Of a stretch of DNA of 23,038 bases, positions 5,025 to 23,038 are shown piece after piece (within the stretch, counting starts at the first letter, position 1; the number at the start of each line of letters is the position of its first letter). Below the pieces are notes generated by a model. It saw nothing but the letters and a program-made list of their open reading frames with translations. It searched no databases and had not been told where the DNA came from. This stretch comes from a virus. Position numbers and translations under genes: made by a program. The stretch is taken from positions 1-23,038 of IMG/VR virus record IMGVR_UViG_3300049733_000130. One strand, written 5' to 3'.

Positions 5025-5038
5025 AGCGCACATTTTAC

Positions 5039-5069: not shown

Positions 5070-5074
5070 TCTGA

Positions 5075-6516: not shown

Positions 6517-6525
6517 GAGGCGACA

Positions 6526-6930: not shown

Positions 6931-6966
6931 AGAAACCGACTCGAGGCTCCGTGTCTTGAGTGACTA

Positions 6967-6999: not shown

Positions 7000-7021
7000 G
7001 CAACCAACGGAGAAGCGCGAA

Positions 7022-7246: not shown

Positions 7247-7259
7247 GAGCGTTCACAAG

Positions 7260-8015
7260 ATGAACACGACGGAGCGGAACGGCAATGGTCACCATGTTCA
7301 CGGAATGAACATTCCGCAGACGGTTGCGATCGTGGCGCTGGGCGCCTCGAACCGCACCTACCTGATGCAGACGATCGAAGCGGGCGGGCGCTGGCGCGTG
7401 TGGGACGAGGTCTGGGCCATCAATGCGATGGGCGGCGTGATCCAGCACGACCGCCTCTTCATGATGGACGCGCTCGAGGACCTCAACCCGGTGCCGGGTG
7501 AGAACGTGAATCACATTCCCGGCCACGTCGCCGAGATCGCCCGGTGGGCGAAGCACCATCCCGGTCCGATCTACACGCCACGGCCGCATCCGGACTATCC
7601 GGGCTCGGTGGCCTATCCGCTGGGCGATGTCATCAAGTCGGTGCCGCACGCCTACTGCAACACGACCGTCGCCTATGCGGTGGCGCTGGCGATGCACTTG
7701 GGCGTGAAGAAACTCGGGCTCTACGGCTGCGACTTCAGCTATCCGCACACGAAGCACATCGCCGAGTCCGGCCGCGCCTGCGTGGAATTCCTGCTCGGCA
7801 TGGCGGCGACGTCGTTCGGGATGGATCTCGTCGTCGCGGCCGACTCGACGCTGCTGGATGCCAGCTCGCCTCAGAGCGCGCGCTTCTACGGCTACCACGA
7901 CTCGCTGGTCTTCGAACAGACCGAGACGGGGATGGTCGTGCGACTCAAGGAGCCGAAGCCCGAGCCTGAAGCGGAGCCGGAGCCCGTGGTTGGGGGTGCC
8001 GATGCCCTACGCTGA
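7260..8015 (+). CDS. Rossmann-like enzyme candidate, DUF115/MptE-like, in head module
   Basis: The protein has 251 residues. After a polar N-terminus comes VAIVALGASNRTYLM, a Rossmann-type first strand and loop, then WDEVWAINAMGG and HDRLFMMDALED, and later KKLGLYGCDFSYPHTKHIAE. These steps recall the DUF115/MptE-like or sialyltransferase-like nucleotide-sugar-binding fold. Related proteins sit in late operons of other siphophages, where some carry a 'morphogenetic protein' label without proof. The C-terminus is a short acidic tail rich in Pro and Glu (KEPKPEPEAEPEP). The ATG at 7260 has AGGAG ten bases upstream; a second ATG at 7305 starts closer to the fold. The 3' end overlaps the next gene by 14 bases. 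It might modify a virion surface or sugar; catalytic residues cannot be assigned with confidence. Confidence 0.6.
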   Translation: MNTTERNGNGHHVHGMNIPQTVAIVALGASNRTYLMQTIEAGGRWRVWDEVWAINAMGGVIQHDRLFMMDALEDLNPVPGENVNHIPGHVAEIARWAKHHPGPIYTPRPHPDYPGSVAYPLGDVIKSVPHAYCNTTVAYAVALAMHLGVKKLGLYGCDFSYPHTKHIAESGRACVEFLLGMAATSFGMDLVVAADSTLLDASSPQSARFYGYHDSLVFEQTETGMVVRLKEPKPEPEAEPEPVVGGADALR

Positions 8016-8376
8016 ACGGCACGTCGTGCCCATTGAGACCGATGGGGCGGGGGCGGCGACCGTCTATTCTCCCGTCATCTCCGGGCGCGTGATGGCCGTG
8101 CGCTACACGAAGGGCAACCTGGCCACCACCGCCGCGATCACGATCTCCGCCGAGGCCACCGGCGAAGCGCTCTGCTCGGAAGTGTTCACCGCCGACACCA
8201 CGCGCTACCCGCGCGTGCCGACGCACACGGCGAGCGGCGGTGTCGTGCTGTTCGGGAGCACGGTCACCTACGGCGTCAACGAGCCGATGGTCGTGGCGCA
8301 GGATCGCCTGAAAGTCGTGGTCGCCAGCGGCGGGGCATCCGTCGCTGGCTCGATCAGCTTTGTGATTGGCACATGA
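8002..8376 (+). CDS. Small beta-rich structural protein of unknown function
   Basis: This 124-residue protein is almost all predicted beta strand: ISGRVMAVRYTKGNL, TTAAITISAEATGEALCSEV, then YPRVPTHTASGG and a closing DRLKVVVASGGASVAGSISF. The TRYPRVPTH core with flanking strands is a pattern I recall from small unnamed proteins in siphophage head-to-tail regions. The start is ATG at 8002, overlapping the preceding gene by 14 bases. The end overlaps the next gene in an ATGA, so it belongs to the tightly coupled run that continues to 9998. No signal peptide or membrane segment is present. A virion structural role is inferred from location only. Confidence 0.65.
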   Translation: MPYAERHVVPIETDGAGAATVYSPVISGRVMAVRYTKGNLATTAAITISAEATGEALCSEVFTADTTRYPRVPTHTASGGVVLFGSTVTYGVNEPMVVAQDRLKVVVASGGASVAGSISFVIGT

Positions 8377-8624
8377 AGATCAAGCTGCGCGCGATCCACG
8401 CGAGTCCTCGCGGGATCTTTCCGCCCGGCACGACCCTCGAGGTCGACGAGACGGAGGCGCGGGCGCTGGTCGCGGGAGAGTACGCCGACCTGGTCGAGCA
8501 GGCGGTCCCGCGGTCGGCTGAGAACACGGAGGCGGAGCCGGCGCGCGCGACCGCGGCGATGGCGCCCGCCGAGAATCGGCGGATCGACGAACCCAATCCC
8601 ACGAGTCGGCGGCGGTCGAAATGA
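8373..8624 (+). CDS. Small conserved phage protein preceding the connector genes
   Basis: The protein has 83 residues. The first half, with IKLRAIHASPRGIFPPGTTL and VDETEARALVAGEYADLV, is a small beta/helix unit often found just before gp6-like connector genes. The second half is low-complexity, charged and Ala/Pro rich. Both ends use ATGA-type overlaps (8373-8376 and 8621-8624), so translation is coupled to both neighbours. No enzymatic motif is visible. Function is unknown; its constant position near the head-tail joining genes suggests a role in the connector or its assembly. Confidence 0.65.
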   Translation: MKIKLRAIHASPRGIFPPGTTLEVDETEARALVAGEYADLVEQAVPRSAENTEAEPARATAAMAPAENRRIDEPNPTSRRRSK

Positions 8625-9549: not shown

Positions 9550-9998
9550 TCGAGACCCGGGTCGAGTTCAAGGGCCTGAGCGACATCGACGCGGCGCTGA
9601 AAGAGCTGCCGATCCAGACGCAGAAGGTCGTGCTGCGGCGCGGCCTGACACTTGCCGCGCGCGTCTACCAGGACGGCATGATGCGCCGAGTCGTCCAGGC
9701 CAGAGAGCACCGCATCGTCCGCTACGGCAAGGACTACCCGCGGAAGATCGCGCACGCGATCGGCTACCGCGTTCGCTTCAAGAAGGACGGCGATCCGATC
9801 GCGGAGATCGGGCCGCTCAAATCGGCCTTCTGGGCGATGTTCGTCGAGCTCGGAACGCGCTTCCAGCCGGCGCGCCCATTCATGCGGCCAACCTTCGAGC
9901 AGGACGGTCAGATCGCCGTCGCCGCCTTCGCGGCCGGCGCCAAGGAAGCGCTCGAGAGCGTCGTGCGGCGGATGCGCCGCATCGCGCGGAGGGGATAG
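9546..9998 (+). CDS. HK97 gp10-like tail completion protein
   Basis: The protein has 150 residues from the ATG at 9546. MIETRVEFKGLSDIDAALKE is the standard opening of gp10-like proteins. The C-terminal FVELGTRFQPARPFMRPTFE is the family's strongest signature. They cap or complete the tail end that joins the head. I chose the ATG at 9546 because it makes the common ATGA overlap with the previous stop; a GTG at 9534 in the same frame would add four residues. The last residues are very basic (RRMRRIARRG). Confidence 0.87.
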   Translation: MIETRVEFKGLSDIDAALKELPIQTQKVVLRRGLTLAARVYQDGMMRRVVQAREHRIVRYGKDYPRKIAHAIGYRVRFKKDGDPIAEIGPLKSAFWAMFVELGTRFQPARPFMRPTFEQDGQIAVAAFAAGAKEALESVVRRMRRIARRG

Positions 9999-10000
9999 CG

Positions 10001-10510
10001 ATGGCCATCAGCGCAGCGGGCACGATCACCATCGACGCAGTGCTCTCGGCGGTCGAGAATCTCGACCTCAGCGTCGACAAAAAGGCCGACCTGACCAAGG
10101 CCATCCGCCAGGTCTTCACGTCGGGCGCTGGGGCCGGACAGTTCGAGCGACTCTTTGTCGATGAGCGGCCGCTCGGGGGGGGCGCCACCGACGCGCTCGA
10201 CTTCTCGGGCGGCGGCCTCCTCGACGTGCTCGGCGGCGCGTGGGCCCCCGGCAAGCTGAAGTTCCTGATCGTCCAGAACCTCGGGCCGAACGACATCCAG
10301 GTGGTGCGACCCGCGAACGGCATCCCGATCTACACGTCGGCGAGCGGCGGTGAACAGATCCCGAGCGGCGGGATTCTCGTGAAGATCTGGCCGAGCGCCG
10401 CGGGCGTCGCCGTGACGACGGGCACCGGCGACCTGCTGAACATCGTGAACACCGCGACGGCGGCAAATACGTATCAGATCATCGCCGGCGGCGCCGGCGC
10501 GGCCACCTAA
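10001..10510 (+). CDS. Predicted structural protein before the tail tube gene
   Basis: The protein has 169 residues. An N-terminal helical part (LDLSVDKKADLTKAIRQVF) is followed by Gly-rich beta strands: ALDFSGGGLLDVLGGAWAPG, LKFLIVQNLGPNDIQVV, IPSGGILVKIWPSAAG and VTTGTGDLLNIVNTA. The strands look like a jelly-roll or beta-sandwich unit similar to small phage virion proteins. The ATG at 10001 follows a GGAGGGG ribosome binding site and the previous stop by two bases. There is no signal peptide or cysteine. Position just before the tail tube gene suggests a tail or virion-surface component; I do not recognise a named family. Confidence 0.65.
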   Translation: MAISAAGTITIDAVLSAVENLDLSVDKKADLTKAIRQVFTSGAGAGQFERLFVDERPLGGGATDALDFSGGGLLDVLGGAWAPGKLKFLIVQNLGPNDIQVVRPANGIPIYTSASGGEQIPSGGILVKIWPSAAGVAVTTGTGDLLNIVNTATAANTYQIIAGGAGAAT

Positions 10511-10532
10511 ACCGGCAAAGGGGGGCGATGCG

Positions 10533-10961
10533 ATGTCTCAGAACGCGGTTCTGACGCAAGGGACGCTGCTGAAGCGCGGCGACGGCGGATCACCGGAGGT
10601 CTTCCAGACCGTGCCGGACGTGATCTCGATCTCGGGCCCCGACGCCAGCAAGAGCGAGATCGACGTGACGGATCTGGCCTCGACCGCCAAGGAGTTCAAG
10701 GGCGGTCTGGCCGACTTCGGCCGCATGACGCTCGAGATGAACTACATCCCGGGCAACGCCATCCACACGGCGATGCGCAACGACTTCAACAGCGGCGCGA
10801 GCCCGGTGCGCAACTGGCGCCTGGCGTTCGTCAACGGCCAGCGCTGGGTCTTCTCGGCCTACGTCGCCTCGTTCCCGGGCAACACGCAGGGCGACAGCGT
10901 GCAGAAGGCCTCGGTCGTGCTCCGCATCTCGGGGCCCGTCCTTGAAGAGGCTGGCTCGTGA
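10533..10961 (+). CDS. Major tail tube protein
   Basis: This 142-residue protein fits the small siphophage tail tube class. It opens with VLTQGTLLKRGDGG, then VISISGPDASKSEIDVTDLAS (the 'sGp..s.eeidvT.l.S' pattern of tube proteins), then EFKGGLADFGRMTLEMNYIP. It closes with strands around RWVFSAYVASFPGNTQGD and ASVVLRISGPV. Tube proteins stack as hexamers around the tape measure. The ATG at 10533 has a very strong purine-rich site (AAAGGGGGG), expected for an abundant protein. The stop overlaps the chaperone gene start (GTGA). It has no cysteine. The next two reading frames are the frameshifted chaperone pair and the tape measure, as expected. Confidence 0.87.
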   Translation: MSQNAVLTQGTLLKRGDGGSPEVFQTVPDVISISGPDASKSEIDVTDLASTAKEFKGGLADFGRMTLEMNYIPGNAIHTAMRNDFNSGASPVRNWRLAFVNGQRWVFSAYVASFPGNTQGDSVQKASVVLRISGPVLEEAGS

Positions 10962-11383
10962 GTGACCTCCGCGCACGGATCCTCAGTCGTACCACCCAGA
11001 AGGGCCCGGCCGACACCCTCGACGTGCCGGAGTGGGGCGAGAAGGTCGGCGTGCGCCGGCTCTCGCTTCGAGAGCGCCTCGCCTTCGAGCGCGAGAACGG
11101 AACGCTCGATTCGCTCGATCGCGCGAAGGACCCAGAGGGCTACAGCCGGTGGCTGGTGCGCTACTGCATCGCCACGGCGACGGACCTCCAGGGCGATCGC
11201 CTGTTCCATCCCGAGGACGAGAAAGAGCTTAACGACGAGAGTGCGACGTCGATCGAGCGCGTCGCGCTGAAGGCGTTGAAGGTCAACGTCGTGACGGCCG
11301 ACGAGGTCCGCGATCTGGGAAACGTATCAAGCGGAGTCCCGAATGGGGCTTCGCATTCCGCCTCGCCGGCCATCTCGGGCTGA
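10958..11383 (+). CDS. Tail assembly chaperone, unshifted product (gpG-like)
   Basis: The protein has 141 residues from GTG at 10958, overlapping the tail tube stop as GTGA. The core, VGVRRLSLRERLAFEREN and then WLVRYCIATATDLQGDRLF followed by ERVALKALKVN, matches the helical gpG-type chaperone domain with the 'R.Ls..e' and 'LF...d' features. These chaperones hold the tape measure while tube subunits assemble, and are not in the mature virion. The C-terminal stretch after the slippery site at 11317-11323 (about 20 residues, PNGASHSASPAISG at the end) is low-complexity, typical of an unshifted tail. It lies directly before the tape measure gene. Confidence 0.85.
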   Translation: MSDLRARILSRTTQKGPADTLDVPEWGEKVGVRRLSLRERLAFERENGTLDSLDRAKDPEGYSRWLVRYCIATATDLQGDRLFHPEDEKELNDESATSIERVALKALKVNVVTADEVRDLGNVSSGVPNGASHSASPAISG

Positions 11384-11667
11384 CGGTCGAGGAGCTCGTC
11401 GATCGGATGTCGGGCGAGGAGTTCGCGGCGTGGCGCGCCCTGGACTCGGTCAGCCCGCTCGATCTCTCGGAACGGCTGGGGGCCATGACGGCGACGATAC
11501 TCGCGAACGTGCATCGCGACCGCGAGCAGCGGCCGCAAGGCTACACGGTCGAGGACATGATCGCGATGACCTCGATCCGCCAGCCGGAGCGCCTCACCCG
11601 TAGGGAAGAAGAGCACCGCTTCCGCGCGGCCTTCCAGCAGGCCGGGCTTCTCGTGGTGAGGAACTAG
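10958..11667 (+). CDS. Tail assembly chaperone, -1 frameshift product (gpGT-like)
   Basis: This is the longer product of the same gene. After decoding to AAC at 11321-11323, a -1 slip continues with CGT at 11323 and reads to the TAG at 11665-11667, giving about 236 residues. The second part (SPEWGFAFRLAGHLGLTVEE, then MSGEEFAAWRALD) has the 'W.fa..LG.t..el..rms..E...W' pattern of gpT-type domains. It has no good start of its own before the conserved region, while the frame is open back through the slippery site. In lambda this domain binds tube subunits while G binds the tape measure. The shift is inferred from motif, frame relation and position. Confidence 0.83.
11317..11323 (+). promoter_or_regulatory. 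Programmed -1 ribosomal frameshift site GGGAAAC
   Basis: The heptamer GGGAAAC lies in the zero frame as G GGA AAC, an exact X XXY YYZ slippery sequence close to lambda's GGGAAAG. It is in the chaperone gene about 60 bases before the zero-frame stop, and the -1 frame then opens a complete gpT-like domain. The efficiency cannot be read. Confidence 0.85.
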
Positions 11668-11669
11668 CG

Positions 11670-13889
11670 TTGGCGACATTGGCCCAGCTCGTTGTCGAGA
11701 TCTCCGCCAATTCGGCTGCCTTCCGCTCGGAGCTTGAGAAGGCCCGCGGTCAGTTCGGCCAGTTCACCAGCGCGATCAAGACGGGCCTCGCCACGCTCGG
11801 CACGGCCGCCTCGGTCGCCGGCCTGACGGCGATGGTCAAGTCGGCGCTCGACGCCGGCGCCGCCACGCGCGAGATGGCCGCCCGCATGGGGATCGGGACG
11901 CGCGAGCTGCAGGAGTTCCAGCACGCCGCGCGCGATACCGGCGTCAACCTCGAGGCGCTAGAGACCGGCATTCGCAACCTCAGCCGGAACCTCGACGAGG
12001 CGGCCAACGACTCCGCGCAGGCGAGGGAGGCATTCGCCCGGCTCGGTGTGAGCTGGCGAGACTCGATGGGCAATGTCCGTGACGTGGTCGACGTGCTGAA
12101 CGACGTCGCGGACTCGCTGAATCTCAAAACTCAGGCCGAGCGCGCCGCTTTAGCGGTGCAGCTCTTCGGTCGTAGCGGCACGCAGCTCATTCCGCTTCTG
12201 AAGGAAGGCTCGAAGGGTATGGCGGCGCTGCGCGCGGAGACGCAGCAGCTCGGCCAGGTCCTCTCTGACGACGCTCTGAAGGCGCTCGACGACATGCAGG
12301 ACTCCTTCGACAAGGCGACGAACAGCATCAAGGTCGGATTCATGAAGGCGGTGGTCGAGGCCAAGCCGGTGCTCGATGGCATCGCGATCGTGCTCACGAA
12401 CATCGGTAACGCGATGGCGGCGATCGCGGAGAAGGTTGGGCCGGTGGCGTCGTTCTTCTCGTCGCTCATCGGCTTCGGCCGCATCAAGCCGATCCCGGAG
12501 CCCGAGGCCTTCGGACCATTCGGTGAGAAGTTCGGGCCGCCACTACCGCCGAAGGCGTCGGGGGCACCGGCGCTGACGATCGCGCAGCGTATCCAGCAGG
12601 CCCAGGCGGCGGCCGCGGCGGCGCAGAACCGCCTGGCGATCGCCGGCGCGGCCAGCCTCGCCGCGCCGGGCTCTCAGGTCGACCTGCTGCAGCGACAGAT
12701 CACGCTCTCGCAGCAGAAGGTCCGGCTCGACCTCGACGGGCTCGCCGCGCAGCGCGCGCTCGAGCTGACCGACAAGGGCCGCCTCGAGCTCGCCCAGAAG
12801 GCCGAGAAGGTCGTGACCGACTTCATCGTCGAGCAGATCAGGCTGACGAAGGAACTCGAGGACGCGACGCAGGCCGCGGCCGCGGCCGAGGCCAACCTCT
12901 TCGACTTCTCCGGCGAAGCCGGCGCCGCGCAGCGCGACCTGGACGTCGCCGCTGACGCCGCCGGCCGATATGCCGAGGCGCTGAAGGAAGCGAAGCGCCA
13001 GGGCCTCGGGATCGGCGAGTCCGAAGTGCTCTTCGACGTGCCGCTGATGAGTTCCGCCGACGCGACGATGCAGAAGCTAGGGAGCCGGCTGAACGACATC
13101 GCCAACCAGAGCCGCGTCATGGGCTTTTCGGTCGATGAGACCGGCAAGCGGATCGCCGCGCTCGACGAGGCGCTGCAGGCGCTCGCCGACGATGGGATCT
13201 CCGAGACCGACGAGGGGCTGCAGTCGATCCGGAGCGAGCTCGAGCGCCTCACGGTGACGCGGGATGCGCTGTCAGACATCTTCGGCGGCCTGCGCAGCGC
13301 CGTCTCGGGCACGGTCCAGGGGATCGTGCAGGGGACGCTGACCATGCGCGAGGCCTTCGCGAACATGGGGCGCTCCATCGCCGCCTCCATCCTCGAGAAC
13401 GTCATCAATCGCGGGCTGCTGGTCGCGCAGCGCGCGCTCGAGGAGTTCATCGACTCGCTCGTCCGAAGCGGTCTGATTCAGTCGACGGTCCGGTCCGGAG
13501 TCGGCCTCCTGACGTCGATCCTGGGCGGCGCGGCCGGCGGGGCTGGCGGCTTCGACGCCGGCGGTGCCCTGGCAGCCGGCGGCGGCGCCGGGGCCGTCGC
13601 GCCACACCTGGCGTCGGGCGGCATCGTGACGAGCCCGACCTTCGCGATGATCGGCGAGGGCGGACCGGAGGCCGTCATCCCGCTGAACCGGCTCGGCATG
13701 GGCGGCGGCACGCAGGTCGTGATTCACAACTACACCGCGGCCACGGTCGAGCACACCGAGAGCCGGGGCCCGGATGGTCAAGAGGTCCACAACTTCGTCA
13801 TCCGCGAGCTGCGTCGCAGCATCCAGAGCGGCGAGATGGACAAGATCCTCTCGCCCTATGCGCTGTCGCGGCAGCCGGTGCGGCGCTGA
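11670..13889 (+). CDS. Tail tape measure protein
   Basis: This 739-residue protein is the longest complete product in the window. It starts with TTG at 11670, with a GAGGA seven bases upstream. The N-terminus (LAQLVVEISANSAAFRSELE) and the following helices are typical of tape measures. There are long Ala/Gln/Leu-rich coiled-coil stretches at about 300-425 and 480-535. A hydrophobic glycine-rich region at about 540-650 may insert into the host membrane. The C-terminus has GGIVTSPTFAMIGEGGPEAV (about 650-670), a strong tape-measure signature. At about 0.15 nm per residue the length implies a tail near 110 nm. It has no cysteine. It directly follows the chaperone gene. Confidence 0.93.
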   Translation: MATLAQLVVEISANSAAFRSELEKARGQFGQFTSAIKTGLATLGTAASVAGLTAMVKSALDAGAATREMAARMGIGTRELQEFQHAARDTGVNLEALETGIRNLSRNLDEAANDSAQAREAFARLGVSWRDSMGNVRDVVDVLNDVADSLNLKTQAERAALAVQLFGRSGTQLIPLLKEGSKGMAALRAETQQLGQVLSDDALKALDDMQDSFDKATNSIKVGFMKAVVEAKPVLDGIAIVLTNIGNAMAAIAEKVGPVASFFSSLIGFGRIKPIPEPEAFGPFGEKFGPPLPPKASGAPALTIAQRIQQAQAAAAAAQNRLAIAGAASLAAPGSQVDLLQRQITLSQQKVRLDLDGLAAQRALELTDKGRLELAQKAEKVVTDFIVEQIRLTKELEDATQAAAAAEANLFDFSGEAGAAQRDLDVAADAAGRYAEALKEAKRQGLGIGESEVLFDVPLMSSADATMQKLGSRLNDIANQSRVMGFSVDETGKRIAALDEALQALADDGISETDEGLQSIRSELERLTVTRDALSDIFGGLRSAVSGTVQGIVQGTLTMREAFANMGRSIAASILENVINRGLLVAQRALEEFIDSLVRSGLIQSTVRSGVGLLTSILGGAAGGAGGFDAGGALAAGGGAGAVAPHLASGGIVTSPTFAMIGEGGPEAVIPLNRLGMGGGTQVVIHNYTAATVEHTESRGPDGQEVHNFVIRELRRSIQSGEMDKILSPYALSRQPVRR

Positions 13890-14248
13890 TGGCGACCTGG
13901 CCCGGCACGCTGCCGCCGCGGCTCCTGGTCGAGGGCTACCAGGAGCGCCTGCCGAATAACAAGCTGCGCACGGAGATGGACGCCGGGCCCGCGAAGCAGC
14001 GGCGCCGCTACACGGCCGCCGTCCGCCCGATCACCGGCGCGCAGGTCCTCACGCAGGCGCAGGTCGCAGCCCTGAAGACGTTCCATAACACGACGCTCCT
14101 CGGCGGCACGCAGCCCTTCGACTGGACCGACCCGATCCCGAACTCCGGCCTCGTCAACTTCCGCTTCGTCACGGAGCCGGTCATCGACCGGGCCCTCGGC
14201 GGCGGGTTCTACCGCGTGAGCTACGAGCTGGAGATCTTGCCCTCGTGA
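13889..14248 (+). CDS. gpM-like minor tail (tail-tip) protein
   Basis: The protein has 119 residues. The pattern GYQERLPNNKLRTEMDAGPA, then RRRYTAAVRPITG, ALKTFHNTTLLGGTQPFDW and a closing VSYELEIL parallels lambda gpM and distal-tail-like proteins: an early strand with an arginine run, a helix before a 'GG..PF.W' turn, and final strands. It sits right after the tape measure as gpM does in lambda, sharing one base with that stop codon. It probably helps form the hub between tube and tip. In lambda the next gene would be L; here a six-gene exported block comes first. Confidence 0.72.
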   Translation: MATWPGTLPPRLLVEGYQERLPNNKLRTEMDAGPAKQRRRYTAAVRPITGAQVLTQAQVAALKTFHNTTLLGGTQPFDWTDPIPNSGLVNFRFVTEPVIDRALGGGFYRVSYELEILPS

Positions 14249-14259
14249 AGGGAGACAGC

Positions 14260-15360
14260 ATGAGACATCGCCGCATCGTGGCCTTCGTCGTCGTCGCGGT
14301 GCTCGCACTCGCGTCGGCGGCGTCGGCCGACATCTTTATGAATTCCAGCGGCGTCACGATCGGCTCGCCGACGTTCCGCTCGTACCAGCCCAACGGGACC
14401 TCGCACCTTCAGGGCCTGGTCATCTGCGACAAGACGGTCTCCGATCGCTGCATCACGGTCGACAACAACGGCGCGATCGCGGTGACGCTGCCGACCGGGA
14501 CCGCGGGCAGCGCTAACGCCGCCGTGCTCTCAATCCAGGGCATCGCCTCAATGACGCCGGTACAGACGACGATCACCGGCGCGCTCCCATCGGGCAGCAA
14601 CGTCATCGGGCACATCATCTGCGACTCCGGCTGCTCGTCGACGACGTCGCCGTCCTACGGGGCGGCCTTCGCATCGACGGGCACGCCGATCGGCTTCACA
14701 GACGGGACGAACATGGTGCCGGGCCGAGTGCGGACCGGACTCATCGGCTCGGGCGACAACGGCCTCGTAGTCCGACCGTTCCTGCCGTCAGACGGAACGA
14801 ACACGATGCCGGCCGGTGACAGCTCGGCGCGCTCGATTCACGTGACGGTCGACAACGGCTCGGCGACGGTGACCGAGAACAATAACCTGACGCTCGGCAC
14901 GTCGGCCGTCGCGGAGACGGTCGCGCTGCAGTACGGGGCTGTCGTGACGACGCCCTCGACGATGACCCTCGGCAGTAACGGCACCGGCATGCGCGCGACG
15001 TTGGCGGCGGCCGGTCAGCAAATCTTCCAGATCAATGCGCCGATCGGGGACTGGACGGGCGGCAAAGCGAATGCGACCGGCACGTCGGACACGTCGCTCG
15101 TCGCGGCGCTCGGCTCTGGCGTCAAGTTCTGCATGACCGACTGGATGGCGACGAACGACTCCGCTACCGATACGAGCTTCCGATTCCGCGATGGGACGAC
15201 CGACATGACCGAGCGACTCATGGTCCCGAACAAGGGGGCCAACCAGAAGTCACTGCTGACGCCGCACTGCACCACGGCAAACACGGCGCTCCAGTTTCAA
15301 GCCGACACGGGCGTGACGACCCTGCGCGTCACCGTCCGCGGCTACAAGACGAAGGAATAG
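14260..15360 (+). CDS. Exported beta-rich protein with DGTN repeats (signal peptide)
   Basis: A 366-residue protein whose N-terminus looks like a Sec signal peptide: basic RHRR, a hydrophobic VAFVVVAVLALASA core and an ASA cleavage site before DIF at about residue 24. The mature part is Thr/Ser/Gly rich and beta-rich. It has a DGTNMVPG segment repeated as DGTNTMPAG exactly 90 bases later, a motif type I recall from phage surface proteins. Six cysteines occur, four in close pairs (CDKTVSDRC, CDSGC). The ATG at 14260 has AAGGGAG five bases upstream; a GTG at 14245 would add a KGDS lead and overlap the gpM-like stop. First gene of the exported block. The function is unknown; the repeat and location suggest a surface or receptor-related protein. 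Confidence 0.72.
   Translation: MRHRRIVAFVVVAVLALASAASADIFMNSSGVTIGSPTFRSYQPNGTSHLQGLVICDKTVSDRCITVDNNGAIAVTLPTGTAGSANAAVLSIQGIASMTPVQTTITGALPSGSNVIGHIICDSGCSSTTSPSYGAAFASTGTPIGFTDGTNMVPGRVRTGLIGSGDNGLVVRPFLPSDGTNTMPAGDSSARSIHVTVDNGSATVTENNNLTLGTSAVAETVALQYGAVVTTPSTMTLGSNGTGMRATLAAAGQQIFQINAPIGDWTGGKANATGTSDTSLVAALGSGVKFCMTDWMATNDSATDTSFRFRDGTTDMTERLMVPNKGANQKSLLTPHCTTANTALQFQADTGVTTLRVTVRGYKTKE
14701..14811 (+). repeat. Two imperfect copies of a DGTN-coding repeat
   Basis: GACGGGACGAACATGGTGCC at 14701 and GACGGAACGAACACGATGCC at 14791 are near-identical and spaced exactly 90 bases apart (30 codons). Both encode DGTN-x-x-P. The differences are few single-base changes. The pair marks an internal duplication or structural repeat in the exported protein. 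Confidence 0.6.
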
Positions 15361-15366
15361 TAGGCG

Positions 15367-15855
15367 ATGCGTCGCCGGGTTGCGCTGCTCGTAGTCGTAT
15401 CCGCGCTCGTATTGCCGGCATCGCTGGTGCCGCGTTCACGGCACGACGAATTACGTTTCCGTGTCGAGGCAGCGCAATTCCCCAAGCAGGTCACGCTGAA
15501 CATGCAGACGCGCGCCGGCGGCGACTACACCTTCCCGGCCGTCACCGTGCCGACCGGCGTCGTCGGGCTCATGTTCAGCATGGACATCTCGGAAGCCAGT
15601 GGATCACTGCCGCTCATCAGCGCGAGCCTCGAGGGCTCGCTGGACGGCGGAAATACCTGGATGCCGGCGGGCGCGTTTACACGCGCGGCGGGGCCGAAGG
15701 GCCTGAACAAGCAAGGCGTCACGGTATCCACGACGGGGGCGAGCTTCTTCGGCGGCCCGTTCTGGAATGACGCCGCGAACGCGAACCGCCGACTGCGCGG
15801 CAGCGCGACGATCGGCGGCACGCTGCGCTTCGCGCTCGAGGTCATGCCGCTGTGA
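15367..15855 (+). CDS. Exported small beta-sandwich protein (probable signal segment)
   Basis: The protein has 162 residues. The N-terminus MRRRVALLVVVSALVLPASL has a basic n-region and a hydrophobic core, but the cleavage point is unclear (after PAS or later), so it may be a signal peptide or an anchor. The rest is beta-rich: QVTLNMQTRAGGDYTFPAVT, the 'DGGNTWMPAGAF' turn, and a closing RRLRGSATIGGTLRFALEV. That pattern, with 'LDGGxTW' and 'RRLRG...V.GG.l', recalls small beta-sandwich proteins of phage tails and decoration. It has no cysteine. It starts six bases after the previous stop and overlaps the next gene in GTGA. Function is unknown. Confidence 0.65.
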   Translation: MRRRVALLVVVSALVLPASLVPRSRHDELRFRVEAAQFPKQVTLNMQTRAGGDYTFPAVTVPTGVVGLMFSMDISEASGSLPLISASLEGSLDGGNTWMPAGAFTRAAGPKGLNKQGVTVSTTGASFFGGPFWNDAANANRRLRGSATIGGTLRFALEVMPL

Positions 15856-16598
15856 GGCTTCTCTACGCGCTGCTCGCGGTCCTGTTGCTAGCCACGCCAG
15901 CGCACAGCGCGATCGCCGTCGTGCAGACGGTCTCGTGCTCGGCGCATGGCGCGACGTCCTGCACGACGGGCGCTGTCACCACGACGAACGGCAATCTATT
16001 CGTCGCGAACTCGTCGTACTGCTGCGCGGCGTTCACGTCGGTAACAGACAGTAAGTCAAACTCCTACGGCAACGCGATTGCCGCGACTTCAGACGCTGAC
16101 GGGGGAACGATCCGTCAGGACTTTATCGCGGCTGGTACGGGCGGCGCATCCCACACCTTTACTTTGACTGGCGCGAGCGGTGCCTTCTTCGGCTCGCTGA
16201 GCGTGATCGAGGTCTCTGGCGCGGCGGCGTCACCGCTCGACAAGACGGCGACCGGACAGGACTCCGGCACGAGCCACACCACTAGCAACACCGCGACGAC
16301 CTCGCAGGCGGACGAGCTCCTGATCGGGGTCGGCGCGTCGATTGACATCACGACGTATACGACCGACACGGGCGCGGGCTGGACGGAGCGAACCAACATC
16401 GCGACCGACGTCAACACCGAAGGGATCCTCACCGGCTCAAGGGTCGTCTCGGCCACGGGCACGTATGCCTACACCTACACGTCGGGCACCAACGACGACT
16501 TCGCACAGGGCATCAGCACATGGAAAGCCGCGGCGGCCGGCGGCGGGGCACGCCAGCAGTGCGTCGGCTGTGGCGCCGATCGCAAGGTGATCGAATGA
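15852..16598 (+). CDS. Exported Ser/Thr-rich beta-sandwich protein with Cys pairs
   Basis: A 248-residue protein, GTG start at 15852 overlapping the previous stop. RLLYALLAVLLLATPAHS is a clear signal peptide with AHS before AIA as likely cleavage site. The mature part is Thr/Ser rich. 'TDSKSNSYGNAI', 'GSLSVIEVSGAAASPLD' and the closing 'GISTWKAA' resemble a secreted beta-sandwich domain known in many bacterial extracellular proteins. Six cysteines (SC...SC, YCC, QCVGC) hint at disulfides; the QCVGCG near the C-terminus is a C-x-x-C. The stop overlaps the beta-helix gene's ATG (ATGA). No enzyme motif is seen. A structural or adhesive surface role is inferred. Confidence 0.65.
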   Translation: MRLLYALLAVLLLATPAHSAIAVVQTVSCSAHGATSCTTGAVTTTNGNLFVANSSYCCAAFTSVTDSKSNSYGNAIAATSDADGGTIRQDFIAAGTGGASHTFTLTGASGAFFGSLSVIEVSGAAASPLDKTATGQDSGTSHTTSNTATTSQADELLIGVGASIDITTYTTDTGAGWTERTNIATDVNTEGILTGSRVVSATGTYAYTYTSGTNDDFAQGISTWKAAAAGGGARQQCVGCGADRKVIE

Positions 16599-18631
16599 GC
16601 ATCTGGCTGATCATCCGCGCCGCGCTCTTCGTCATGCCGTCCGTCGTCGTGCTCCTCGTGATGACGTATCCCGCCAGGCCAGCCACGACCTTCGTGGCAT
16701 CGAACGTCGGTAACGATGCCGCCGGCACACCCTGCACGGATAGCGTCCCCTGCTCGGTGCGCCGCGCGATCCTCACCGCGAATTGCGCCAACAATGACGT
16801 GATCGAGCTGCTCGACGGCACCTATACCGGCGCGAACTATATGCTGGACGTCTTCAACTACGCCGGCAGCAAGTCGGGCACGGATGACACGCACCGCTGT
16901 ACGATCCGCGCCCGCAACGACGGCGGCGTCCTCATCGACGGCCAGAACACACGGACACCGCTCTGGCTGCAGGGCAATTCCTGGTGGACCGTCGAAGGCA
17001 TCAATGCCCGAGACGGCGACGACGTCTTCTTTGTGAAGAACTCAAGCAATCTCATCTTGCGCCGCCTTGTGGGCTGGGACACCAAGAGCCTCGTCGATCG
17101 CAAGGTATTCATAGTCGAGAGCAGTACGAACGTGCTGGTCGAGGATGTCGGGGCCTTCGGGCTGGCCGTCGAGACGATTCTCGACTACGGCAACAATGTC
17201 AACGTCAAATGGCGACGAGTCTGGACACGAACCGAGGGCCAGGTGTTTACCCCGAGCGTTTGTTGCACGGGGAGCACCGCGAACCAGTTCAACTACACGA
17301 CCGCGAATCATCCTACGCCGTCGCTCATCGAGAACATCATCCAGCTCGCCGGGCCGGACCGCGGCTCTGAGGGGATCGCGGCCGTCACGAATTGGATCCG
17401 CCACGACGCGCTGACGCCCTTCGTGCGCTTCTTCGGAACGATGCACTACGTGACCACCGGGGCGCCGACGATGCACTTCGGCTCCATCGCCTACGACGGC
17501 AACCCCGAGGCCTGTACGGGCTACATCATCACCGATAGCGTTGTGCACGCCAATGGCTCGGCGAGCCGACCCATTCAGGTCGGGCAAGGAGCCACGCCAG
17601 CGCAAGGGTGCGACGGGTCGAATCCCGGAGCCCCGCAGCAACTGACGCGCGTGAACAGCGTCCGCGGCAGCACGGCGTCGACCTACGGTCACGCCACGCT
17701 GACGAATGTCAACGAGTCGACCACCATCGGCGGCACTGGCTTCGACTACGTGGGCACCGGGAACACGGCGAAGCTCTGCTTCCGATACGTCGATGGCGTC
17801 TACACGGCCACGCCGCTCTGGCCCTGGCCGATGGATGGCCGCATCAAGGCCGCGATCGAGATGAATGCGGGCCGCGGCAGCGTCGCGCTGACGGGCGGCG
17901 CGGGGACCGGCTATCAGGCCGGCACGGTGACGAGCGAGATCGCCAGCATCTTCGGCCCGATCCCGGCGGCCTGTAACAGCTCTGGCGGCCCGTTCGTGCC
18001 GAACTTCCCGACCGCCAGCGACTTCCCGTCGACACCGATCATTGATGATTTCAACCGCGCCAATGGCTCGATCGGACCCAACTACACCTGGGCCGTCGGG
18101 TCCGGCTATACCATCTCGGGCAATCTCGCGCTCGCCCCGGTCGGCGCCACGCGCGGCTGGTGGAACGCGGACACCTTCACGGCGTCGCATGAGGTCTATG
18201 CGACCTGGCCGACGGTCCCCAGCGGCGACAGCGTTCTCCTCACCTTCGCCGGACCCGATCTCGCAGACAACGGCTATCACCTGATCCTGACTCGCTCGGG
18301 CGGCAATGCCTTCCTGCGGGTCGCGCGCATCACGGGCGGCTACACGGAGATCCTTGGGCCGATCAATCTCGGGACGGACGTGGCGAACGGGCAGAGCTTC
18401 GGCATTCGCGTGAGCCCGACGCAAACGATCTCGATGTACTGGAAATATAGCGACGGGCTCTGGTATCGCATCGGCTCGGTGATCGACACGAATCTGCCGG
18501 CGACCGCACGGATCGGCGTCGGCGGCATCCTGAGCAATACGATCAACGATCTGGGCGGCGGCACATGCTGCGGCGGCGCCGTGAGCCCGGCGAATATCGG
18601 GCGCTTCGGCACCCGGTTCCCGACGCAATGA
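16595..18631 (+). CDS. Exported beta-helix protein with jelly-roll-like C-terminus
   Basis: The protein has 678 residues. The N-terminus MSIWLIIRAALFVMPSVVVL with LVMTYPARPA is strongly hydrophobic; a clean cleavage site is absent, so signal peptide and membrane anchor are both possible. From about 30 to 430 the sequence has repeated short strands and Asn/Gly turns of a right-handed parallel beta-helix (VIELLDGTYTGANYMLDVFN, CTIRARNDGGVLIDGQ, NSWWTVEGINARDGDD, SSNLILRRLVGWDTKS). A segment with PLWPWPMDGRI at about 405 recalls secreted bacterial beta-helix proteins. From about 480 a jelly-roll-like domain starts at DDFNRANGSIG. Twelve cysteines are present. It could be a polysaccharide-binding or depolymerising protein; no catalytic residues can be assigned. 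ATGA overlaps couple it to both neighbours. Confidence 0.72.
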   Translation: MSIWLIIRAALFVMPSVVVLLVMTYPARPATTFVASNVGNDAAGTPCTDSVPCSVRRAILTANCANNDVIELLDGTYTGANYMLDVFNYAGSKSGTDDTHRCTIRARNDGGVLIDGQNTRTPLWLQGNSWWTVEGINARDGDDVFFVKNSSNLILRRLVGWDTKSLVDRKVFIVESSTNVLVEDVGAFGLAVETILDYGNNVNVKWRRVWTRTEGQVFTPSVCCTGSTANQFNYTTANHPTPSLIENIIQLAGPDRGSEGIAAVTNWIRHDALTPFVRFFGTMHYVTTGAPTMHFGSIAYDGNPEACTGYIITDSVVHANGSASRPIQVGQGATPAQGCDGSNPGAPQQLTRVNSVRGSTASTYGHATLTNVNESTTIGGTGFDYVGTGNTAKLCFRYVDGVYTATPLWPWPMDGRIKAAIEMNAGRGSVALTGGAGTGYQAGTVTSEIASIFGPIPAACNSSGGPFVPNFPTASDFPSTPIIDDFNRANGSIGPNYTWAVGSGYTISGNLALAPVGATRGWWNADTFTASHEVYATWPTVPSGDSVLLTFAGPDLADNGYHLILTRSGGNAFLRVARITGGYTEILGPINLGTDVANGQSFGIRVSPTQTISMYWKYSDGLWYRIGSVIDTNLPATARIGVGGILSNTINDLGGGTCCGGAVSPANIGRFGTRFPTQ

Positions 18632-19296
18632 GATCGCTCCTCGCGCTGCTCCTCGTCGCGCACGCAGTCGCCACGGCGGCCGCCGATAGTCCGCTCTGCA
18701 GCGGCGCGACGTGTACGGCGACGCTGGTCTACACCGAGCCAACCACGAAGGTCGACGGCGCGCCGCTGACGGACCTTCAAGACGGCGTCTTCACATATGT
18801 GAGAGACGGGAAGGAAGAGCGGCGGCTCGTCATTCCATCTAGCAAGCCGGCCGGCGGCGGCACGATCTCGGTCGACATCGCGCTGCAGGTTCCGCCATGC
18901 ACGGACGCGGTCTTCACCGGCGCGCTGGTGATGCGCTCGCCGTCAGTAAGGGCCTCGGCTCCCGTCACGGCGCCGACGCTCAGTATCCAACGCAGCACGC
19001 TGCCGACCGGCGAGCCCGATCCGGCGTGCGTAGCACCGACGAGCGTGACGCTGCAATGCCGGGACGCCGACTGCGCGCTCACCTGGACGCCTGTCGTCGG
19101 CGCGCAAGGGTATCGCGTCGTGCGCTGTACGCAGAAGGACCGCTGCGCGCGGATAAGTGGCTGGCAGACCGTCGCCACGACCACAGGCACGACCGCGAGT
19201 ATCACGGCGCCGCCCGGCCTTTCGGACTATGCGGTTTACGCGGACACGGGCACAACGTCGAAGCTGCTCGGGCTGCGCACGACGGTGATGCGGTGA
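18628..19296 (+). CDS. Exported protein with two fibronectin-III-like domains
   Basis: The protein has 222 residues. MRSLLALLLVAHAVATAAAD is a clear signal peptide with AAA before DSP. Two FnIII-like units follow. The first (about 30-118) contains YTEPTTKVDGAPLTDLQDG, like the 'PT.n.DGtpLtdL' start of bacterial FnIII domains. The second (about 135-220) contains ALTWTPVVGAQGYRVVRC and ends in LSDYAVYADTG, like the 'W..v.gA.gYrV' core. Eight cysteines occur, several in near pairs (CSGATC, CRDADC, CTQKDRC), supporting disulfide formation after export. The ATG overlaps the previous stop; the end overlaps the next GTG (GTGA). Such domains commonly bind or space surface structures; a specific partner is not evident. 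Confidence 0.7.
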   Translation: MRSLLALLLVAHAVATAAADSPLCSGATCTATLVYTEPTTKVDGAPLTDLQDGVFTYVRDGKEERRLVIPSSKPAGGGTISVDIALQVPPCTDAVFTGALVMRSPSVRASAPVTAPTLSIQRSTLPTGEPDPACVAPTSVTLQCRDADCALTWTPVVGAQGYRVVRCTQKDRCARISGWQTVATTTGTTASITAPPGLSDYAVYADTGTTSKLLGLRTTVMR

Positions 19297-19637
19297 GACC
19301 CATACTCGCGGGCCTCGTGCTTACCGCCTTCGCCGGAGTCGTCGGCGCGGAAGCCCCGCGACCGCTCGGCGAGCTCGACGCGCTCCGGATCGGGAAACTC
19401 TACGCCGAGCGCCAGGTCTTCGAGCAGGCGCTGCTGAAGCTCCAGGCGCAGCAGGAATCCCTGCGCGTGCAAACGCAGAGCACGCGGCGTGAGTACGAGG
19501 CGAAGAACGCCGAGCTCCAGGCGGCGATCGGGGCGGCGGCCGCCGGGGCAGGCCTCTCGGCGGCGGATCTCGCGGCGGGCTGGCAGCCGGCGCCTGAAGA
19601 GCGTCGCTGGATCAAGGTCGAGCCGGCTAAGCCATGA
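19293..19637 (+). CDS. Small exported coiled-coil protein
   Basis: A 114-residue protein, GTG start at 19293 inside a GTGA overlap. The N-terminus RPILAGLVLTAFAGVVGAEA is a good signal peptide with VGA before EAP. Residues about 28-75 form an amphipathic, Gln/Glu/Leu-rich coiled coil (LYAERQVFEQALLKLQAQQE), then an Ala/Gly-rich linker and a polar C-terminus. It has no cysteine and no lipobox. An inner-spanin-like or periplasmic chaperone role would fit signal plus coiled coil, but no outer-spanin partner or other lysis gene is visible. It closes the exported block, overlapping the DUF1833 gene by ATGA. Confidence 0.62.
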   Translation: MRPILAGLVLTAFAGVVGAEAPRPLGELDALRIGKLYAERQVFEQALLKLQAQQESLRVQTQSTRREYEAKNAELQAAIGAAAAGAGLSAADLAAGWQPAPEERRWIKVEPAKP

Positions 19638-20155
19638 GTCCGCTTCCGCTCATCCCTGGTGGCGGCGCGTTCGGCGGCACGTCGGGCCGCGACCTCTCGG
19701 GCCCTGCACGGCAGTCGATCTACGCGCAGGAGACCGGCGAGATCTGGCTGCACTTACTGGAGATCGAACACACCGCGATCACCACGCTGCGCTTCGTCGA
19801 CAACACCGAGCAGATAACGAGCAACGGCGACATCTACCTGCCCTATGCCTTCCGGATCGCGCTGCCGGGTGAGTTCGACGACCAGCTCCCATCCGTGCAG
19901 CTCGAGATCGACAACGTCGACCGGCAGATCCTCGAGGGCATCCGGGCCCTGCCGTCAGCCCCGACTATCGTCCTGGCCCTCATCCTCGCAAGCAGCCCAG
20001 ACGTCATCGAGGCGGGGCCCTTCCGATTCACGCTGAAAGCCGTCGACTACGACGCGCAGACCATCAGCGGGACGCTCGCCTTCGAGGACACGCTGAACGA
20101 GCCCTACCCGGCGATCCGCTTCACACCGAACTACTTTCCGGGGATCTTCCCGTGA
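19634..20155 (+). CDS. DUF1833-family tail protein (gpL position)
   Basis: The protein has 173 residues. After a short Gly-rich start (PLIPGGGAFGG) the DUF1833 pattern is clear: RQSIYAQETGEIWLHLLEIE, TSNGDIYLPYAFRIALPGEF, LEIDNVDRQILEGIRAL and the ending NEPYPAIRFTPNYFPGIF. Members sit between the tape measure and the NlpC/P60 peptidase genes in many siphophages of Gram-negative bacteria, in the place of lambda gpL, and are thought to help form the tail tip. It has no signal peptide, unlike the six genes before it, and no cysteine. The start overlaps the coiled-coil gene stop (ATGA), the end overlaps the peptidase gene (GTGA). Confidence 0.87.
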   Translation: MSPLPLIPGGGAFGGTSGRDLSGPARQSIYAQETGEIWLHLLEIEHTAITTLRFVDNTEQITSNGDIYLPYAFRIALPGEFDDQLPSVQLEIDNVDRQILEGIRALPSAPTIVLALILASSPDVIEAGPFRFTLKAVDYDAQTISGTLAFEDTLNEPYPAIRFTPNYFPGIFP

Positions 20156-20574
20156 GGACGCTGCCGGCCTGGGCGGCGCGCTACGTTGGTCGGCCCTTCG
20201 CTGACGGAGGACGGGACCTCGACGGCGTCGATTGCTGGGGCCTCGTCAGGCTCATCCTACGCGAGCAGTACAGCCTCGAGCTGCCGAGCTACGCGGGCGC
20301 CTATCCGAGCGCGTCGGAGCGCTCCGAGGTCTCGACGCTCGTCGCGGCCAGCGTGCCCGAGCTCGGCTGGATTCCAGCGCGACCGCCCTATCTGGCCGGG
20401 GACGGCGTCGTGCTCCGCGTTGAGAATCGCCCGTGGCACGTCGGGCTGATGCTGAACGACGACGACTTTATCCACGTCATGCCCAGCGGCACGTCGCTGA
20501 TCGAGTCGATCACGGGGCTGCGGTGGGGCCGGAGGATCGTCGGCGTCTACCGACACCCGGAGGTCAGGGCGTGA
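20152..20574 (+). CDS. NlpC/P60 cell-wall peptidase, tail assembly (gpK-like)
   Basis: This 140-residue C40-type cysteine peptidase has the expected order: PFADGGRDLDGVDCWGLVRL with catalytic C28, then PWHVGLML with catalytic H96, and FIHVM with H108 as likely third residue. It should cut peptide cross-bridges in peptidoglycan, helping DNA pass the wall, or process tip proteins during assembly. It lacks the N-terminal JAB/MPN-type domain of lambda gpK, as in many siphophages. The start is GTG at 20152, within a GTGA overlap with the DUF1833 gene; the stop overlaps the next GTG at 20571. There is no signal peptide, fitting a virion-borne enzyme. Confidence 0.92.
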   Translation: MRTLPAWAARYVGRPFADGGRDLDGVDCWGLVRLILREQYSLELPSYAGAYPSASERSEVSTLVAASVPELGWIPARPPYLAGDGVVLRVENRPWHVGLMLNDDDFIHVMPSGTSLIESITGLRWGRRIVGVYRHPEVRA

Positions 20575-23038
20575 CGACGGAGCTCGTCGACGAGCCGCTG
20601 ATCGAGCGCGTGCAGCTCGTGACGGCGTCGCGGCCGTTCTCATTCGATACCACGGCGCTCGAGGTCGGGCGCGCCACGATCGCGGACCTGATCGCGCTGG
20701 CCGGCATCCCGGCGGGCACGCCGACCCGCGTCTACGTGAACGGGGTTTTGCATTACCCGGCGTACTACCACGTCACCAGGCCGAAGGCCGGCTCGCACGT
20801 CCTGATCCGTGTGGTACCAGCGGGCGGCGGCGGCAGCGGCGGGAAGAACATCGGCCAGGTCGTCCTCGGCATCGTGCTGATCGTCGTGGGCGCCGCCCTA
20901 TCCCTGTCCACACTCGGCTGGGGCACGTCGGTCGGCGTTCCGATGATTGTCGGCGGCGTCGGCATGGTGATCTCCGGCGTGATCAATATGCTGATTCCGC
21001 CGCCGACGCCGCCCAAGCTGCGGCCGCTGTCTTCGGGGACCGCCGACCAAGAAAGCCCGACCCTGTCGATCGCCGGGCAGCGGAACGACCTGCGCCCCTA
21101 CGGCGTGGTGCCGCGCATTCTCGGCACGCATCGGATCTTCCCGCCGTTCGCAGCGGCGCCATTCACGGAGGTCGTCGGCGCGGACCAGTACCTGCGGCTG
21201 CTCTTCCTGATCGGCCTCGGCGAGACGAGCTCGACGGAGCACAAGATCGGCGAGACGCCTATCGAGAACTTCGACGGCGTCGAGATGGAGGTCCGGACTG
21301 GCGCCGCGGGCGAGCCGCCGATCACCCTCTATACCAACGACGTCAACGAGCAGCCGCTCACCGACGCGCTGACGCAGGCGGGCGGCGGCGTCATCCGGAC
21401 CACGGTGCCCGACACGGCGGAGATCTCCATCAGCAACGCCTTCCTCGGCGGGCTCGTGCAGTTTGACCCGAACACCGGGGAGAAGTTCAACACGACCGTC
21501 TCGGTCGACGTCGACTACCGCCTGGTCGGGCAGGCGACATTTGTGCCAGCGCCGGGTTCCCCGCTCGTCACGCGCGAGGCGCGTCAGGCGATGGTTCGGA
21601 CCGGCCTAAGCTGGAAGCCGCAGCGGCCGGCCGGTCCCTATCCAGCGACGAGCTGGTCTCATCTCGGCCTCTCTTCGGTCACGCTGTCGCGGTTCAACGA
21701 TGGCGCTCTGGACCTGAAAGCCTTCGACGCGCACGCCGCCGAGGCCGGATCCTGGATTGAAGTCGACGCAGGCGATGAAGTCGAGTTCGGTCGCGTCGTC
21801 GTCACGTCGCTCGACACCGGCGCCACGAGCATATGGAGCGTCGAGGTTAGCAATGATCATGTGACCTGGACGAGCGTCTTCCAGGGGTTTTCGACCGGCG
21901 GCGCATTGAGTCGGAGCGCCGAATGGCGCGCGACGCGCGGCCGCTACTGGCGCCTGCTGAAGACCAATGGGCCGAATCTGGGCTTTAACCCCAACTACAC
22001 CGAAGTCGAGTGGTGGCAGACGACGCCGGGCCAGTACGACGTGCGCCAGACGCGAACGACGGCCGACTCGGGGAGCCAGAACACAATCGACCTCGTCGTC
22101 TGGGCATCACTGCGATCCATCCGGCTCGTGAGTCCTGTGAATCTGCCGGCCGGCATGCCGGTCGCACTCACGGCCCTACGCATCAAGGCGACGGACCAGC
22201 TCAACGGCGTGCTCGATAGCTACAACTGCCTCGCGACCGGCCGGATGCTGGACTACGCGAGCTACGCGGGCAGCGTGCAGGCGGACAGCCCGCTCGGCTA
22301 CTGGCGCCTCGGGGAGGTCAACGGGGCCCCGCTCGCGTTCGATGCCAGCGGCAACGGCCGGAGTGGCTCGTATGCCGGCGACCCGGGCCTCTGGAGCGCC
22401 GGGCTAGTGACCGATGACGCCGACCGCGCGATGACGGCCGATGGCATCGACGACACCGTCAGCGTCGCGGCCGTCTCGTCGATCGACATGGGCAATATGA
22501 GCTTTACGCTCGAGTGCGCCGTGAAGTTCCTCTCCGTCGCCGCCGGGACGCACGGGATCATGCACAAGGGCGACGGCCTCGAGTTCACTGCGAGCCACAT
22601 CGGCTGGGCGCTGATCCGCGACGGGGACCGGATCAAGTTCGTGCGCGCGACCGGCAGCGGCTCGCCGACCGTGCTGACGAGCAACACCGCCTTCCCGGTG
22701 GACTTCGTCGCGCATCTCCTCGTGCAGTACGACAAGGTCACCGGGAACGCGACCCTCTGGGTCAACGGCACCGTCGACGGCACGACGAACGTCGGGACGG
22801 CGTCCTACGCGGACACCTATCCGCTCCAGATCTCGCATCCTGTCTCCGGCGGCGCCGTCTGGGACGGCATCCTCGACGAGGTCGCCGTCTACCCGGCTCG
22901 GCTCGAGGATTTCCGCGTGCAGCTTCATTACGCCGCCTTCACGGGCACGCGCGAGTGGATCGTCGCCGGCACGAGCAACCCGGCAAGCCACTACCGACGG
23001 ATCCTGCAGGGCCCGGAGAACGCGCGGCCGCTGGCCGA
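20571..23038 (+). CDS. TipJ-like tail tip/host specificity protein (incomplete)
   Basis: The frame is open for over 820 codons from GTG at 20571 and runs off the right edge. The N-terminus has a small beta domain, then a Gly-rich, hydrophobic segment (about 83-143), as in fused gpI-like regions. Next comes the J-type core GQRNDLRPYGVVPRILGTHR (about 172-190), LRLLFLIGLGE and HKIGETPIENFDGVEME. Two insertions follow: a discoidin-like module at about 375-482 (WIEVDAGDE, SVEVSNDHVTWTSVFQGF, RYWRLL...YTEVEWW), and a LamG-like module at about 563-785 (SPLGYWRLGEVNGAPLAFDA, NMSFTLECAVKF, WDGILDEVAVYPARL). They are candidates for receptor binding. The remaining C-terminus is beyond the window. Confidence 0.9.
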   Translation, partial: MTTELVDEPLIERVQLVTASRPFSFDTTALEVGRATIADLIALAGIPAGTPTRVYVNGVLHYPAYYHVTRPKAGSHVLIRVVPAGGGGSGGKNIGQVVLGIVLIVVGAALSLSTLGWGTSVGVPMIVGGVGMVISGVINMLIPPPTPPKLRPLSSGTADQESPTLSIAGQRNDLRPYGVVPRILGTHRIFPPFAAAPFTEVVGADQYLRLLFLIGLGETSSTEHKIGETPIENFDGVEMEVRTGAAGEPPITLYTNDVNEQPLTDALTQAGGGVIRTTVPDTAEISISNAFLGGLVQFDPNTGEKFNTTVSVDVDYRLVGQATFVPAPGSPLVTREARQAMVRTGLSWKPQRPAGPYPATSWSHLGLSSVTLSRFNDGALDLKAFDAHAAEAGSWIEVDAGDEVEFGRVVVTSLDTGATSIWSVEVSNDHVTWTSVFQGFSTGGALSRSAEWRATRGRYWRLLKTNGPNLGFNPNYTEVEWWQTTPGQYDVRQTRTTADSGSQNTIDLVVWASLRSIRLVSPVNLPAGMPVALTALRIKATDQLNGVLDSYNCLATGRMLDYASYAGSVQADSPLGYWRLGEVNGAPLAFDASGNGRSGSYAGDPGLWSAGLVTDDADRAMTADGIDDTVSVAAVSSIDMGNMSFTLECAVKFLSVAAGTHGIMHKGDGLEFTASHIGWALIRDGDRIKFVRATGSGSPTVLTSNTAFPVDFVAHLLVQYDKVTGNATLWVNGTVDGTTNVGTASYADTYPLQISHPVSGGAVWDGILDEVAVYPARLEDFRVQLHYAAFTGTREWIVAGTSNPASHYRRILQGPENARPLA

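Follow-up and report, generated by a model that had tools for sequence, protein, structure and literature searches.

Six consecutive genes with predicted export signals form a candidate mobile cassette within the tail-tip operon of a siphovirus fragment

As a rule, the genes in the assembly operons of tailed phages are taken to encode cytoplasmic virion parts. The window, i.e. the whole stretch of DNA analyzed here, is an IMG/VR virus record of 23,038 bases, which gene calls, PHROGs and Pfam identify as a siphovirus fragment. Its genes run from head genes through the tape measure (11670-13889) and a gpM-like tail protein that carries no export signal (13889..14248, plus strand; phrog_384, E 1.7e-22) to six genes, here termed S1 to S6, which are followed by a DUF1833 tail-tip protein (19634..20155, plus strand; PF08875, E 1.3e-19; phrog_396), an NlpC/P60 (K-like) tail protein (20152..20574, plus strand; PF00877) and a J-like central fibre (20571..23038, plus strand; phrog_31, E 4.9e-35). 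The fibre is cut by the window end and continues past it in L002, a contig from a separate assembly that overlaps the window from part of S4 into J with 100% identity, including S5, S6, DUF1833 and K. A preceding sequence-only reading had proposed that a block of six signal-bearing genes splits the conserved order of the tail-tip genes: All six open reading frames occupy 14260-19637 as claimed, and in the cassette-less relatives L004-L008 and L015 the gpM-like gene is immediately followed by DUF1833, which identifies the block as an insertion. The gene behind it, which had been called L-like, is DUF1833 and corresponds to lambda L by position.

Start and stop codons overlap in a chain from S2 through S3, S4, S5 and S6 into DUF1833. 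Gaps of 11 nt and 6 nt separate gpM from S1 and S1 from S2, respectively. An in-frame GTG at 14245 provides an alternative start of S1; we favour 14260 because it is preceded by GAAGGGAGA and aligns with the start in the close relative G001. Within 13600-20700, a search with the sigma-70 consensus found no promoter-like site. As an accessory gene insertion that is absent at the same place in relatives, the block resembles phage morons, from which it differs by having no promoter-like site of its own, by its translational coupling to the flanking morphogenesis genes through overlapping start codons, and by comprising several co-inherited genes.

All six genes lie on the plus strand and their products are predicted to be exported. 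S1 (14260..15360; signal peptide MRHRRIVAFVVVAVLALASAASA^D at 14260..14328, with ^ marking the predicted cleavage) encodes 366 amino acids with six cysteines in the mature part and is the most conserved member, its homologues in the comparison genomes G001, G002 and G003 being 70-82% identical. S2 (15367..15855) is a beta-rich protein of 162 amino acids without cysteine. S3 (15852..16598; signal peptide MRLLYALLAVLLLATPAHSA^I at 15852..15911) comprises 248 amino acids with six cysteines in the mature part and is predicted to form a beta-sandwich with a minor-tail-protein-like fold. The largest member, S4 (16595..18631; 678 amino acids), is predicted to combine an N-terminal right-handed beta-helix, resembling pectate lyase Pel9A and PL6, with a C-terminal beta domain. 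S5 (18628..19296; signal peptide MRSLLALLLVAHAVATAAA^D at 18628..18684) has 222 amino acids and eight cysteines, and its C-terminal region weakly resembles phage major tail proteins or an FNIII domain. S6 (19293..19637; signal peptide MRPILAGLVLTAFAGVVGA^E at 19293..19349), with 114 amino acids and no cysteine, is probably a coiled-coil, as judged by eye.

Signals were called with a home-made heuristic that evaluates hydropathy, charge and cleavage site and applies a threshold of 2.4 to the hydrophobic core. According to this heuristic, 6/6 cassette proteins have a positive charge in the n-region and a hydrophobic core of 11 residues whose mean KD is at least 2.47, whereas 0/22 of the other window genes carry a Sec-type signal (maximum core KD 2.07, with a negative n-region) and 3/730 background non-gene ORFs exceed the threshold. 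The chance that exactly these six of 28 genes pass is ~3e-6, and that of any contiguous block of six is ~6e-5. A lack of signals in most of the six, which the sequence-only reading had named as grounds for refutation, was not observed. Cleavage sites of the AxA type can be recognized clearly in S1 (ASA^D), S3 (HSA^I), S5 (AAA^D) and S6 (VGA^E) and less so in S2 and S4. Clear sites are present in homologues of S2 (PAWA^Q, VASA^Q, TAWA^Q) and S4 (PVGA^A). Between the window and G001, the signals of S2, S3, S4 and S6 are 39-53% identical and the mature parts 47-77%, with corresponding values of 80% and 82% for S1. The cassette members are under purifying selection, as computed from dN/dS values of 0.22-0.42 between the window and G001, where S4 evolves fastest among the measured members (S5, which G001 does not have, was left out). 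None of S1-S6 contains a lipobox of the kind found in the Llp/Ltp lipoproteins, and lipoprotein anchoring of the window proteins was rejected for this reason.

The cysteine content follows the same pattern. The mature parts of S1-S6 contain 32 cysteines in 1652 residues (1.94%) vs 23 in 6190 (0.37%) for the rest of the proteome (p=1.9e-9), and the counts in the mature parts of S1, S3, S4 and S5 of the window are even, which fits folding in an oxidising compartment. Six cysteines of S1 are invariant across four phages; its total is six in the window, G001 and G002 and seven in G003, where one lies inside the predicted signal. In the same order, S3 has 6, 6, 8 and 8 and S4 has 12, 16, 18 and 14 cysteines. 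S1 relatives in other contigs have 5-16 cysteines where the signal is clear; two without signal have none in 610 and two in 1019 amino acids. Together, conserved signals, cysteine enrichment, translational coupling and the absence of a detected internal promoter give good support to the prediction that S1-S6 are exported and produced alongside the tail genes, as the sequence-only reading had anticipated.

A search for the block in other phages yielded homologues in G001 (47.8 kb), G002 (44.8 kb), G003 (42.7 kb) and G004 (43.7 kb), and the heuristic finds the signal in every one detected. G001, whose genome is probably complete because its end fragment repeats the beginning of the contig, has the same cassette junctions as the window and is missing S5. 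Most ATGA/GTGA couplings are retained in the homologues of all four genomes: The S3/S4 start-stop overlap occurs in all four full cassettes, and overlaps also recur at the S4/S5, S5/S6 and S4/S6 joins. In G002 and G003, which contain tyrosine integrases and an additional exported gene upstream of S1, the cassette directly abuts a portal-like gene; portal and head-tail-adaptor matches lead us to infer that both are podoviruses. In a blastp comparison of all ORFs, the window and L002 have only S1-S6 in common with G002 or G003, which suggests that the cassette is independent of virion architecture. The sequence comparison suggests that S1-S6 form a horizontally mobile cassette, present as an isolated module in unrelated phage types. 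The gene next to every full cassette encodes a virion protein or, in G001, is a small gene followed by a virion protein gene. In all full cassettes, the product of the gene right behind begins with an M-x-PLPLLPG-like stretch (window 19634-19690; L028 13205-13460; L019 15693; L029 13172), although these proteins (DUF1833, portal-like, small gene product) are unrelated. For DUF1833 of the window, this N-terminus, MSPLPLIPGGGAFGGTS, is an extension that is missing in the cassette-less relatives, which begin with MARTLS or MSRxLS. The motif might be a recombination scar of the right cassette edge or a docking peptide and is possibly functional.

Signal-bearing S1- or S4-like genes also occur in the phage contigs L014, L016, L018, L020, L021, L025 and L027, in several cases among virion genes, with gene context read from gene calls rather than full annotation. 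Lipoprotein-type signals are found in S4 relatives of L015 (from genome G005) and L066 and in a beta-helix protein of L027; in the distant S4 relatives they point to membrane tethering, which argues for an envelope role. Relatives without signal are encoded in L026 and L056 (S1) and in L067 (S4), and the S3-like protein of G005 has no signal and a single cysteine. Among cultured phages (tblastn, INPHARED), S1 and S3 gave no match and S4 one weak match, to an archaeal-virus record. Scans of bacterial genomes returned nothing for S3 and one weak S1 match, in a prophage of an Oleiharenicola MAG; across 150 genomes from the group given for the family of this MAG, S1 was found only in that same MAG. 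The respective contig, L053, carries the signal-bearing S1-like gene together with apparent rpsB and tsf genes. Its prophage-like region at 9608-12028, with rpsB/tsf at the edge, encodes the S1-like protein of 806 amino acids amid tail genes. In L015 (8841-12282), which belongs to a related siphovirus, lipoprotein-like FNIII and S4-like proteins follow J and a fibre and precede the non-exported, cysteine-poor S3-like protein. An S1-like protein with signal, a small lipoprotein and the lipoprotein-type beta-helix are inserted among virion genes in L027 (9329-15289), and L045 of G004 (6198-8569) harbors a second overlapping pair of exported genes, a beta-helix and another, away from the S2-S3 genes of this genome.

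Searches of Pfam and NCBIfam gave no match above cut-off for S1-S6, PHROGs nothing firm beyond a weak match of S5 to major tail proteins, and PDB sequence profiles only weak matches for S1-S3. For the structural model of S3 (pLDDT 74, pTM 0.76), the BFVD matches are minor tail proteins predicted for mycobacteriophages as well as further phage proteins; a fold search of the PDB found no significant solved relative. The S4 model is a beta-helix of fair confidence (pLDDT 63.5) that is good for the first 200 residues only. The S4 family profile finds Pel9A (1ru4) at E 5.5e-6 and chondroitinase B only weakly (0.03), and the model matches the PL6 enzyme 7o7a (foldseek E 3.4e-4, low TM). L066, a distant S4 relative, passes the cut-off of PF14592 (chondroitinase B), which S4 itself does not. 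The S4 alignment contains conserved ED, RR, Q..Y and EN columns. Fibre-type and beta-helix folds are thus represented in the set, according to the S3 fold search and the S4 model and matches. Like the bacterial PL9/PL6 lyases Pel9A and chondroitinase B, which are secreted, S4 is predicted to be exported, and its profile match to them covers the N-terminal helix; the similarity is remote, and the S4 gene resides in a phage tail operon.

We favour, with a probability of about 0.5, the reading that S1-S6 constitute a mobile, late-expressed set of proteins that would be exported via host Sec, disulphide-bonded, and glycan-binding or glycan-cleaving, with the host envelope or matrix as their target. 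It is supported by the resemblance of S4 to pectate lyase/PL6, the lipoprotein-like S4 relatives, the independence of virion type and the separate, non-exported fibre-like genes that G001 has after J, and it ranks first among the possibilities that the sequence-only reading had left open. While virions are being assembled, the proteins would pass through the Sec pathway into the periplasm, where they would fold and form disulphides, and then act in the envelope or be released beside the virions at lysis. S4 would bind or cut a surface or matrix polysaccharide, S1, S2, S3 and S5 may serve as fibre-type binding proteins, and S6 possibly as a coiled-coil scaffold. The likely benefit would be to mask or strip the receptor glycans that the dying cell, cell debris and the matrix of neighbouring cells present, so that progeny would not be wasted and could spread; co-production with the tail proteins would match the supply to the burst, without S1-S6 being tail parts. 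Three points weigh against this proposal: Sec export ends in the periplasm if the host is a diderm, which counts against surface action before lysis; the minor-tail fold of S3 suits a virion part at least as well; and the S4 model is of no more than fair quality.

Known systems cover parts of the proposed behaviour. The T5 Llp/Ltp lipoproteins are exported to the envelope of the infected cell and mediate superinfection exclusion (PMC9586334, PMC3952083), and Llp masks the receptor against superinfection and against progeny loss on debris (PMC9586334). The cassette would share with them export to the envelope and the proposed sparing of progeny from unproductive adsorption; however, they are small single lipoproteins, whereas the signals of S1-S6 are of signal-peptidase-I type and only distant S4 relatives are lipoprotein-like. 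Phage depolymerases exist in soluble and virion-bound forms, the soluble ones being released at lysis, and the two reviews make no mention of signal peptides on them (PMC5380687, PMC6966330). S4 resembles them in its carbohydrate-active beta-helix architecture and late production and differs in bearing a Sec signal itself and in being accompanied by five genes for further exported proteins.

The main alternative, a tentative one that is also contained in the sequence-only reading, is that the cassette supplies an exported virion appendage. Fibre or decoration proteins would acquire their fold in the periplasm and join the virions during lysis or later, for example by docking on the directly downstream protein. 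A periplasm-assembled fibre is possible in view of the fold of S3 and of the conserved motif on the product of the next gene, which in full cassettes is a virion protein gene or, in G001, a small gene followed by one; the weak major-tail-protein matches of S5 and a fibre-like 'ISALTAAS' stretch behind the signal peptide of S7 in L030 point the same way. However, the cassette would have to find the same dock in a siphovirus and in portal-linked phages that are otherwise unrelated. Distant S4 relatives resemble lipoproteins, ordinary fibre-like genes are present in G001, and S1-S6 carry export signals, which would not be expected of tail fibres or tailspikes made as cytoplasmic proteins. Moreover, we know of no tailed phage that assembles parts by export. 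A bolder version, to which we assign a small probability, envisages a Caudoviricetes appendage or coat built outside the cytoplasm, in which exported, disulphide-bonded fibre-type proteins would be stored in the periplasm and attached at lysis through a PLPLLPG docking peptide; a peptide travelling with the cassette would explain its transfer between virion types.

Lysogenic conversion or surface exclusion, in which the proteins would cover the surface of lysogens to keep out related phages or change adhesion, had likewise been put forward and appears unlikely. The nearest precedent for an exported protein from a tail-tip region is lambda Lom, for which such a role has been proposed. This outer-membrane beta-barrel is encoded by a nonessential gene (PMC10695390) located between J and the side-fibre genes (PMC12309495). 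Like S1-S6, it bears a signal peptide and comes from the tail-tip region of a lambda-type siphovirus. Lom, however, is one Ail-type barrel encoded downstream of J, whereas the window has six unrelated proteins upstream of J that are mostly disulphide-rich (predicted) and shared with portal-linked phages, and no Pfam or NCBIfam match of S1-S6 to the Ail/Lom family lies above cut-off. The integrases of G002 and G003 make conversion possible in these phages, where it fits poorly with late-gene coupling; neither the window nor G001, whose contig ends overlap, contains a PF00589 integrase, which renders it less likely for the window phage. The start codons overlapping or abutting downstream morphogenesis genes, the 11 nt gap to gpM, the missing promoter-like site and the lack of any PADLOC defence model match to S1-S6 also speak against it. 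Alternatively, the hydrophobic N-termini could stay uncleaved and serve within the virion or at the inner membrane instead of directing export. This would agree with the inconspicuous cleavage sites of S2 and S4 and is improbable given the clear AxA sites in homologues, signals that diverge faster than the mature parts while keeping their pattern, and cysteine enrichment that tracks the signals. It is hardly conceivable that the block stems from misassembly or from contaminating bacterial genes for secreted proteins, a reading that no observation favours, since L002 is identical from part of S4 through J, G001 has the same junctions, and bacterial scans with S1 and S3 gave a single weak prophage match; a chimeric assembly was rejected on the first two grounds.

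Exported accessory phage proteins as such are already known from Lom and Llp. S1-S6 match neither family, and a search of the open-access literature found no multi-gene exported cassette described. A conserved exported set wired into the particle-building operons of unrelated phages suggests an overlooked phage action outside the cytoplasm: Either secreted proteins that act on glycans are a routine tool of phages in late infection, or certain virion parts are completed only after leaving the cytoplasm. Each possibility is testable and would change the annotation of such genes.

Two further features lie in the head region of the window. On the minus strand at 4599-5135, between the prohead-protease-like and capsid genes, an antisense ORF resembles a GNAT acetyltransferase, and at 7260-8015 a gene of 251 amino acids ('VAIVALGASNRTYL') looks non-structural and has similar-looking counterparts in G001.
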